In this document: in pieces, positions 60,852 to 64,000 of the stretch
How positions within the stretch are numbered: the stretch's first letter is position 1
Layout: each line of letters starts with the position of its first letter
Source: Streptomyces mexicanus
GTDB taxonomy: Bacteria; Actinomycetota; Actinomycetes; Streptomycetales; Streptomycetaceae
Direction: 5' to 3'
DNA length: 64,000 nucleotides
NCBI RefSeq assembly: GCF_902506575.1
Contig: NZ_LR732544.1
Span: 4,949,458-5,013,457, forward strand
Program-made: the position numbers and the translations under genes
Notes under the pieces: model-generated
Databases searched by the model: none
Told to the model about the DNA's origin: nothing
The model's input: only the letters and a program-made list of their open reading frames with translations

Positions 60852-63050
60852 CTACGCCGGCCGCAGCCACACCGTGGCCAGTGGGGGCAGGGTCAGCCGG
60901 ATGCTCGCGGGGCGGCCGTGCCAGCCCTGCGGCTCCGGCTTGACGGGGTCGGGGTGCACGACGTCGCTGCCGCCGTAGCGGGCCGCGTCGGTGTTGAGGA
61001 CCTCCGCCCAGGCGGGCACGTCGTCCGGGACGCCGAGGCGGTAGTCGGGGCGGACCGCGGAGGAGAAGTTCGACACCGCCAGCAGCGGGGAGCCCCGGTC
61101 GTCGTAGCGCAGGAACGCGAACACGTTGTCGTCCGCCGCGTCCCCGACGATCCACTGGAAGCCGTCGGGGTGCACGTCCCGCGCCCACAGCGCGGGCGTC
61201 GCGCGGTACACGGCGTTCAGGTCGCGCACCAGGTCCAGCACGCCCCGGTGGTCGGCCGCCGCACCGTAGGACGGGTCCAGCAGCCACCAGTCCGGGCCGC
61301 GTGCCTCGGACCACTCGGCGCCCTGTGCGAACTCCTGCCCCATGAACAGCAACTGCTTGCCCGGGTGGGACCACATGAAGCCCAGATAGGCGCGCAGGTT
61401 GGCGCGCTGCTGCCACCAGTCGCCGGGCATCTTCGACACCAGCGAGCCCTTGCCGTGCACCACCTCGTCGTGGGAGATCGGCAGCACGTAGTTCTCGCTG
61501 TAGGCGTACACCATCGAGAACGTCATCTCGCCGTGGTGGTACCGGCGGTGGATCGGATCGTGGCTCATGTACTGCAGCGAGTCGTGCATCCAGCCCATGT
61601 TCCACTTCAGCCCGAACCCGAGCCCGCCGAAGCCGCTCGGGCCCCGGTGGTGGGTCGCGCGGGTCACCCCGTCCCAGGCCGTCGACTCCTCCGCCACGGT
61701 CACCACACCCGGCACCCTGCGGTACACGGTCGCGTTCATCTCCTGCAGGAACGCCACCGCGTCCAGGTTCTCCCGGCCGCCGTGCACGTTCGGCGTCCAC
61801 TGGCCCGGCTCGCGCGAGTAGTCCAGGTAGAGCATGGAGGCCACGGCGTCCACGCGCAGCCCGTCGATGTGGAACTCCTCGCACCAGTACAGGGCGTTGG
61901 CCACGAGGAAGTTGCGCACCTCGCGGCGGCCGAAGTCGAACTCCAGCGTGCCCCAGTCCGGGTGCGCGGCCCGCAGCGGATCGGAGTGCTCGTACAGCGC
62001 ACGCCCGTCGAACTGCGCCAGCGCCCAGTCGTCGCGCGGGAAGTGCGCCGGCACCCAGTCCACGATCACGCCGATGCCCGCCCGGTGCAGGGCGTCCACC
62101 AGGTACTTGAAGTCGTCCGGCGTGCCCAGGCGCGCGGTGGGCGCGTAGAAGCCGGTGACCTGGTAGCCCCAGGAGCCGCCGAAGGGATGCTCGGCGACCG
62201 GCATCAGCTCCACATGGGTGAAGCCCAGGTCCTTGACGTAGGCGGGCAGTTGCTCGGCCAGTTCCCGGTACGTCAGGCCCGGCCGCCAGGACGGCAGGTG
62301 CACCTCGTACACCGACATCGGCGCCTCGTGCGCGGGCCGCTCCGCCCGCCGCGCCAGCCACTCCTCGTCGCCCCACACGTGGTGCGAGGCGTGCACGATC
62401 GACGACGTCGCCGGAGGGACCTCCGTGCGGCGGGCCATCGGGTCCGCGCGCAGTGTCTTGGAGCCGTCCGGCCGGGTGATCTCGAACTTGTACAGCTCGC
62501 CCTCGCCGATGCCCGGCACGAACAGCTCCCACACCCCGCTCGCGCCCAGCGACCGCATCGGGTACGCGGTGCCGTCCCACAGGTCGAAGTCACCGGCCAC
62601 CCGCACGCCGCGCGCGTTGGGCGCCCACACCGAGAACCGGGTGCCCTCCACCCCCTGGTGGGTCATCGGGTGCGCGCCGAGCACCTGCCACAGCTGCTCG
62701 TGCCGCCCCTCGCCGATCAGGTGCAGGTCCAGCTCGCCGAGCGTGGGCAGGAAGCGGTAGGGGTCCTCGGTGTGCAGCACCGTGCCCTCGTAGGCCACCT
62801 CCAGCCGGTAGGCGGGGACCTCCGCGAGCGGCAGCAGCGCCGAGAAGAACCCGTCCCCGTCGTGCCGCAGCTCCACCTGCACGCCCTCGGCGTGCACGGC
62901 CACCCCCAGCGCGTACGGCCGGAACACCCGCACGGCGATCCCGCCCGGCACGGGGTGCGCGCCGAGCACGGCGTGCGGGTCGTGGTGCGTCCCGTTGATC
63001 AACCGCTCCCGGTCCTCGAACGGGACGGCGGGGGAGACGGAGGACGAGGG
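60852..63050 (-). CDS. glgB: 1,4-alpha-glucan branching enzyme, 5' end missing
   Basis: About 733 residues of GlgB are genuine. A CBM48 region begins [20 protein letters not shown], and a GH13 barrel follows. Catalytic landmarks are VDWVPAHFP, the nucleophile Asp in [11 protein letters not shown], the acid/base Glu in VTVAEEST, and [11 protein letters not shown]. It transfers alpha-1,4 chains to alpha-1,6 branches in glycogen. The true N-terminus, a low-complexity Ala/Lys/Pro-rich tail in relatives as I recall, is replaced by adapter sequence from 63051. The apparent start at 63149 is therefore artificial. Maltokinase lies upstream, as in the GlgE pathway. Confidence 0.92.
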
Positions 63051-63400
63051 CTGCCTCTTATACACATCCGACGCTGCCGACGACTCCTTACGTGGAGTTC
63101 GCAGTAGCACGCGGATCGCGAAAAAAAAAAAAACATACCATAGCTCCACGTGAAGTCTACAGATGGTGCTATACTAATCGTCACCATGTGGTAAATCTCC
63201 ACCTGACACGAGCCACACAATGACGAACCGTTAAACAAGGTCAAGAGGGAGGTCAAAAGGATACAGAACATAGGCAGAAGGGAGGGTAGTAGGTACCGTA
63301 GAAGGCACAGTGAGATGTATATTGTTTAGAAAGCAAGGGGCGGCAAGAAAGGTCGCCACAGAAGGAGTCGGCGGCAGCGTCAGATGTGTATAGAAGACGG
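63051..63400. other. Illumina Nextera adapter read-through (assembly artefact)
   Basis: At 63051-63069 the sequence is the reverse complement of the Nextera transposase mosaic end with two mismatches. The adapter GACGCTGCCGACGA follows at 63070-63083, then CTCCTTAC (63084-63091), the reverse complement of a standard i5 index, degraded adapter and 13 A (63121-63133). AT-rich noise follows. At 63367-63400 the same adapter appears in the other orientation (GGCAGCGTCAGATGTGTATA). In the glgB frame it reads SDVYKRQ, the known contamination peptide. No gene here is real. Confidence 0.95.
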
Positions 63401-64000
63401 GGGGGGGCCCGGGCCGGCCAGGCGGCGTATGGCCGACAGCGGGACCGCGAGCCAGTCGGGGCGGTGCCGTGCCTCGTAGACCACCTCATATACCGCCTTG
63501 TCGGTCTCGCAGGCGCGCAACAGGACAGGATCGGTGCGCGGGTCGTTCCCACCGGCCTCCGCGTACCCGGTGCAGTACGCCGCCCGGCAGGCCGCGGCCC
63601 ACTCCAGGGCGGGCGGCCCGCCCGCGGAGTGCGCCGCGTAGTCGAAGGAGCGCAGCATCCCGGCGACGTCCCGCACCGCCGGCTGCGCCATCCGCCGCTC
63701 GGCCAGCGGCCTGGCCGGCTCGCCCTCGAAGTCGATCAGCGACCAGTCCCCGGCGGGTGCGCGCAGGCACTGCCCGAGGTGCAGGTCGCCGTGGACGCGC
63801 TGGGCGGTCCAGGTGTGACCCTCGGCGGCCAGGTCGGCCAGCGCCTCGTAGGCGGAGTGCAGGGCGGGCGCGTACGGCCGGAGCGCGGGCACCGCCTGGG
63901 CCGCCGCCTCCAGGCGCGCGGTCATCCCCTCGACCAGCGACTGCAGCTGGAGGTGGCCGAGGGTGACGGTGGGCAGGGCCCGGGCCAGCGCGGTGTGCAC
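63401..64000 (-). CDS. mak: Maltokinase, partial
   Basis: The C-terminal roughly 200 residues of a maltokinase (Pep2-type) are present; the gene runs off the right edge. The aminoglycoside-kinase-like catalytic loop RVHGDLHLGQCLRA and the metal-binding LIDFEGEPARPLAERRM are clear. Near the end, VYEVVYEARHRPDWLAVPLS precedes AIRRLAG. The last few residues (PPPSSIHI) come from adapter sequence, so the true stop is missing. It phosphorylates maltose to maltose 1-phosphate for GlgE, and is normally followed by glgB. Confidence 0.9.

Follow-up and report, generated by a model that had tools for sequence, protein, structure and literature searches.

The window, i.e., the whole 64,000-nucleotide stretch of Streptomyces mexicanus DNA that was analyzed (G000:C17:4949458-5013457), lies within a 7,159,421-base scaffold of a 7.93-Mb assembly that comprises 159 contigs. 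A gene for a 1,4-alpha-glucan branching enzyme (glgB) is encoded on the minus strand at positions 60852 to 63050; this genuine part of the gene specifies 732 amino acids (TIGR01515; E = 3.9e-299), including the Pfam domains GlgB_N, CBM_48, Alpha-amylase, and Alpha-amylase_C, and its start and an N-terminal stretch are missing. On the same strand, the C-terminal part of a maltokinase gene (pep2), also genuine, occupies positions 63419 to 64000 and runs past the window end (TIGR02457 TreS_Cterm; E = 2.1e-36). The maltokinase bit score falls below the whole-protein cut-off, as expected for a fragment, and the fragment has no Pfam match. Both pieces match the NCBIfam joint model NF011293 in the proper order (271-469 and 506-1223), again below the whole-protein cut-off. 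Between the two genes lies an insert whose GC content is 0.44 to 0.51, compared with approximately 0.75 in the surrounding sequence.

Each end of the insert consists of an Illumina Nextera adapter. The left adapter, on the plus strand, comprises the transposase mosaic end (ME; 19 nt; positions 63051 to 63069; sequence as given in PMC3046479) and the i5 arm (63070 to 63083), which together (63051 to 63083) contain 2 mismatches in 33 positions. They are followed at 63084 to 63091 by an i5 index, the reverse complement of GTAAGGAG, and by a degraded P5 end at 63092 to 63120. The right adapter has the opposite orientation and is encoded on the minus strand, with a degraded P5 end (63331 to 63359), an i5 index (63360 to 63367), the i5 arm (63368 to 63381; 13/14 identical), and the ME (63382 to 63400; 3/19 mismatches). 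The two arms form a 37-nt inverted repeat that is 89% complementary across a spacing of 260 nt, and neither the left 33-mer pattern nor the right ME pattern was matched in any of 100 dinucleotide shuffles. These results bear out the first-pass annotation, which had described two Nextera adapters in opposite orientations, each with its ME. Compared with the S505 i5 primer end sequence given in PMC10528933, which spans 70 nt (i.e., 19 + 14 + 8 + 29), the left arm is identical at 55/70 positions (ME, 17/19; arm, 14/14; index, 8/8; P5, 16/29) and the right arm at 51/70 (ME, 16/19; arm, 13/14; index, 6/8; P5, 16/29). Although 16/29 is a poor score for P5, it was reached in only 15 of 20,000 shuffles for the left arm and 31 of 20,000 for the right. 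On both sides, ME, arm, and index match this primer well and the agreement declines toward P5, with all segments in the fixed order and spacing of an i5 read-through tail. The two adapters had also been said to share the same i5 index. The left index is S505 without error, and the right index agrees with S505 at 6/8 positions only, although none of the other seven indexes in the comparison fits better than S505. A Nextera mate-pair junction adapter was considered separately and rejected; it requires an ME followed directly by its own reverse complement, and here an i5 arm follows each ME.

Two inverted MEs flanking a foreign stretch are also what a Tn5-type transposon or cassette inserted between the genes (e.g., in an engineered mutant) would leave, with the MEs as its ends. 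However, the i5 arm, sample index, and P5 end that follow each ME, as defined by the published primer end, are not elements that a transposon would carry, and the sequences immediately outside the two MEs (GGACGAGGG and GGGGGGGCC) do not form the 9-bp target duplication. Together with the assembly-wide distribution of such ends and the content of the insert (see below), these features make a transposon insertion exceedingly improbable.

An adapter screen of the assembly, which the first-pass annotation had recommended, identified 58 MEs with at most 3 mismatches, compared with 0 for a reversed-pattern control. Thus, the adapter chimera proposed between glgB and maltokinase is supported by its own adapter segments and by the 58 ends in the assembly, although it is no lone accident, since the site accounts for only 2 of those 58. 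The numbers of MEs with 0, 1, 2, and 3 mismatches are 1, 0, 41, and 16, respectively, and this scarcity of near-perfect copies suggests a trimmer that tolerated one error. Twenty-six ends face a 101-N gap no more than 400 nt away (in one case with another adapter in between), 9 point at a contig end, and 23, including both ends of the insert described here, point at neither. On the genomic side of the adapters, N residues occur within 400 nt at only 1 of 49 scaffold sites. For a transposon, one would not expect 58 ends that carry differing errors, 35 of which point into gaps or at contig ends. By type, 43 of the tails are i5 and 15 are i7. Among the 41 i5 tails whose length allowed the index to be read, 31 were called S505 (as defined above), 9 gave no call, and 1 was called S508. 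The i7 tails share a consensus index, AGGCAGAA, which appears in PMC7589761 under the name N703-A, although on a different primer arm. Nearly all of the adapter ends can be explained by a single library.

Beyond the left P5 end is a poly-A run of 13 bases (63121 to 63133, plus strand) that starts at position 71 of the left tail. It marks the place where the read would have run off the library molecule. The molecule ends after 70 nt in the case of i5 and, according to the tail consensus, after 66 nt in the case of i7. A run of at least 6 A's was found within the first 130 nt of 10 of the 43 i5 tails, including the left tail of the insert, and the longest run starts at positions 71 to 75 in all 10. 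Such runs are present in 10 of the 15 i7 tails, starting at positions 67 to 69 in 9 of them and at position 96 in the other. Averaged over all tails, the fraction of A jumps at approximately position 71 (i5) and position 67 (i7). Counting against this pattern, 26 of the 36 i5 tails (of 43) that are at least 80 nt long have no run of 6 A's; these include the right tail of the insert, and the poly-A mark is therefore present on the left side only. Reads running off the end of the molecule would produce such a pattern, and cellular DNA has no reason to exhibit it.

A chimeric library molecule generated by PCR or ligation, in which genome, adapter, filler, adapter, and genome were truly joined, would present the same order of parts. 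We consider such a molecule very unlikely, because, among the i5 and i7 tails with an A run, poly-A begins where the molecule ends, because adapter identity (relative to the published primer end) decays along the read as it does in run-off reading, and because 58 ends would not arise from a single PCR chimera.

Between the two 70-nt arms, the filler measures 210 nt (63121 to 63330), close to the approximately 230 bp reported in the first-pass annotation, which had also characterized it as AT-rich noise. The drop in GC content agrees with that description; the filler is nevertheless not pure noise, as its right tail is partly PhiX174. Specifically, positions 63253 to 63304 (minus strand) resemble PhiX positions 2681 to 2732, within gene G, and the match exceeds chance (E = 3e-5 against a phage collection of 2.3 Gb of records), although the identity is only 82.7% over 52 nt. 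In that collection, 133 records match the filler, and the 5 among the matches listed are all PhiX174. Six plasmid records also match (E = 1e-4); the 5 among the matches listed are 5,386 bases long, i.e., the size of PhiX, and the sixth is, by tally, from Cellulomonas. Along a single diagonal, the identity of the right tail to PhiX in 10-nt blocks is 0.5 to 1.0 from position 63310 down to 63221, 0.4 at 63311 to 63330 and at 63211 to 63220, and mostly 0.1 to 0.3 below that. The remainder of the left tail (63134 to 63230, plus strand; right edge approximate, 63211 to 63240) yielded no PhiX match above shuffles, its best diagonals being no better than those of shuffled sequences.

PhiX is used as a spike-in control in Illumina sequencing, as described in PMC4511556. 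The sequence matches show that the tails derive in part from PhiX, and we infer from its position after the adapter end that cluster cross-talk was the route by which it entered. One could instead regard the filler as a true low-GC element of the strain, such as a small RNA gene or a mobile remnant, that merely happens to lie between adapters. The contrast between its GC content (0.44 to 0.51) and that of its surroundings would fit such an element, whereas its absence from 60 other relatives (E ≤ 0.01), from 20,395 Escherichia coli records, and from Rfam does not, nor does the fact that its best phage and plasmid matches are PhiX174 or PhiX-sized records. PhiX is the sole homologue among the matches listed for phages, plasmids, E. 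coli, and relatives. The filler therefore offers no cargo gene of the kind that a transposon might carry. As PhiX fragments also recur beside other adapters in the assembly (see below), we assign a genuine element a negligible probability.

We compared with PhiX those tails (44 of the 58) that extend 30 nt or more past position 70. PhiX matches were found in 16 of these at E ≤ 1e-6 and in 17 at E ≤ 0.05. At the latter threshold, 50 shuffled sets gave 1.9 matching tails on average and never more than 6, and the reversed tail set gave 3 (none below 0.003). The other 28 tails have no match at E ≤ 1e-6. Three pairs among the 16 matching tails are two views of one insert, leaving 13 separate inserts, and identity to PhiX across the 16 ranges from 69 to 100%. 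A genome-wide search (E ≤ 0.001) detected PhiX at 11 places and missed three of the 13 tail inserts. The pieces at these 11 places measure 35 to 1,172 nt, are 76 to 98% identical to PhiX, and are located within a scaffold or at the ends of other contigs; 10 of the 11 adjoin an adapter. The largest of these (1,172 nt; 98%; C17:1217268-1218439, L297) lies beside a Nextera adapter in the main scaffold. A 35-nt stretch at G000:C17:3602254-3602288 (L307; 91% identity) has no adapter within approximately 1.5 kb and may be either a chance match or a trimmed tail.

We also searched for PhiX in 30 further genomes of the genus that have adapter matches and in 30 that have none; it was detected only in G130, at three places. 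This genome contains 63 adapter copies, and its PhiX fragments (L308, L309, and L310) are error-laden. Like the insert described here, L309 comprises an i5 adapter (3 mismatches), a PhiX segment (86% over 76 nt), and an inverted i5 adapter (5 mismatches), although it belongs to another assembly and to another place; in L310, the single adapter match is weak (7 mismatches), and L308 has no adapter match. Since PhiX occurs in only 1 of the 30 other adapter-bearing genomes, it is not a necessary part of the fault.

The two tails of the insert appear to have been joined at about positions 63211 to 63240, as estimated from the PhiX diagonal and from a composition test. In the latter, the change of direction is best placed at 63230, positions 63219 to 63239 being nearly as good, and the test favors a join only modestly, by 4 log units, over a model with a single right tail. 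A join at this position gives tails of approximately 160 to 190 nt each, and the tails that end at N gaps measure 20 to 258 nt, leaving out one of 392 nt that passes through a second adapter.

We propose that short library molecules would have yielded reads that overran the genomic fragment, entered the adapter, and continued beyond its end. Beyond the end of the molecule, the base caller would have reported A's and then the signal of other clusters, the PhiX control among them. Tails with at least two errors in the ME would have been missed by the trimmer and, left untrimmed, may have formed contig ends where true coverage failed. An assembler or gap filler would then have fused two such tails at about 63211 to 63240. 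The assembly lacks the true maltokinase-GlgB sequence; four close relatives possess a Lys/Ala-rich GlgB tail in this region. That positions 63051 to 63400 represent an assembly artifact and not a real biological feature is, in our judgment, practically certain. We are evenly divided on a further possibility, namely, that PhiX-bearing tails served as glue, with the assembler leaving one contig end, walking along unfiltered PhiX reads, and emerging at another. No tail that ends at a gap or contig end comes close to the length of the 1,172-nt PhiX stretch (the longest measures 258 nt, the one of 392 nt excepted), and PhiX reads were therefore probably used at that site.

The artifact alters both reading frames. 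The glgB frame (ORF 60852 to 63149) acquires a false N-terminus of 33 residues (63051 to 63149, minus strand) that ends in SDVYKRQ, a string read in the minus-strand frame of glgB. The expectation that any protein entry built from this contig would carry SDVYKRQ holds if the start is placed upstream of the string (e.g., at the GTG at 63149) and fails if the annotator's start is further in. Among the papers covered by a text search, VYKRQ occurs in 4 and SDVYKRQ in none. Maltokinase had been said to have lost its stop. Its true end is indeed gone, but the frame (ORF 63380 to 64000) still stops, at an adapter-made TGA (63380 to 63382, minus strand).

To characterize what the insert replaced, we compared the junction with homologous loci. 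Of 24 other genomes, 18 contain a match to the maltokinase fragment (E ≤ 0.001). Of 24 loci taken, the window's own (L124) and 5 without a glgB match were left out, and the 18 remaining loci, which contain both genes, include a second copy in the same genome and paralogues in other genomes. The two genes adjoin at all 18, as had been claimed, but not flush. Their aligned ends, which vary by some codons among the loci, are 59 to 681 bp apart, and sequence must therefore have been lost here as well as inserted. In all 18 loci, the frame remains open for at least 14 further codons upstream of glgB, not all of which need be coding; this further frame agrees with the proposed loss of the GlgB N-terminus. 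The second pep2-glgB pair of the same genome (G000:C17:649188-649748; L143) has an intact junction with 130 bp between the aligned ends. In one relative (L132; G010), the pep2-glgB junction contains a run of Phe codons in frame followed by 314 N residues; another assembly failed at this junction too.

Four close relatives (L125, L126, L127, and L129 from G011, G001, G009, and G007, respectively; 79 to 82% identity in the maltokinase part) have an open frame of 157 to 216 residues before GlgB that is composed of 21 to 26% Lys and 27 to 35% Ala. These GlgB tails are built of tandem units of 15 bases and multiples thereof, with units such as AKKATAKK. Recurring 12-mers make up 2 to 19% of the tails, compared with 0 to 1% of the glgB body in three of these relatives, and the GC content of the tail region (0.66 to 0.71) is not above that of its surroundings. 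Among other close relatives, L128 (83%) has a Lys-poor stretch of 116 residues and L130 (80%) has only approximately 25 residues. That the lost tail stretch caused the coverage gap is a guess. When most of a relative's GlgB tail was searched against this assembly, we obtained 7 weak matches (best E = 5.8e-5), located elsewhere on the main scaffold, and no tail match was present on another contig among the 150 of 1,029 first-look candidates that were scored; the lost sequence was not recovered. Branching enzymes have been typed by their GlgB N-termini (PMC6339891), and that study describes "Type 3" enzymes, whose long N-terminus includes a putative N0 domain resembling CBM48. The tails of the four relatives instead look, from their composition, like low-complexity polycations.

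Of 392 genomes of the genus, 31, including the present one, contain the 33-mer consisting of ME and i5 arm (at most 3 mismatches); a reversed 33-mer gave 0 matches in the genomes listed. Among the matches listed, the copies in G203 (10) and G086 (10) are all exact, those in G108 have 1 mismatch, and those in G012 and G318 have 2 to 3 mismatches, as in this assembly. The single 9.0-Mb contig of G012 (C1) contains 22 adapter matches, of which the 10 among the matches listed are at 6.4 to 8.9 Mb with 2 to 3 mismatches; it is probably a scaffold of the same kind. The exact 33-mer is present in at least 120 stretches of the public genome collection. Among the 80 loci listed, which contain 85 exact matches, 81 matches are within 50 nt, and 84 within 250 nt, of the stretch end to which they point.

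The insert shares its ME and i5 sequence with the untrimmed Nextera read-through found in draft assemblies. In contrast to the usual read-through at contig ends, however, two tails are here fused inside a 7.16-Mb scaffold, and almost every copy that survives contains errors, as though trimming had removed the clean copies. Similarly, PhiX174 spike-in left in a deposited bacterial genome is the kind of contamination described by Mukherjee et al. in 2015 (PMC4511556), but the screen described there flagged scaffolds consisting of at least 80% PhiX at 90% identity or higher, which the pieces found here would escape. Contamination by adapters and by PhiX is a known problem in itself; current screens may be less effective against the form in which error-laden tails are fused and bridged by PhiX. 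The combination of PhiX, adapter read-through, and neighboring clusters was not found in the literature, in a search too thin to call it unreported, and no paper title among those listed names this fault.

Error-laden adapter copies escape exact-match screens. If the glue reading is true, the fault would also produce seamless false joins within genes that are missed by screens for whole PhiX contigs or for adapters at contig ends. The remedy is a mismatch-tolerant adapter screen combined with a PhiX screen that also flags matches covering less than a whole contig. The insert itself has no biological meaning, and its significance is that of data hygiene and a contamination warning only: the GlgB of this organism may be deposited with a false N-terminus, in which as many as 33 residues derived from adapter and noise stand where its relatives carry other sequence.
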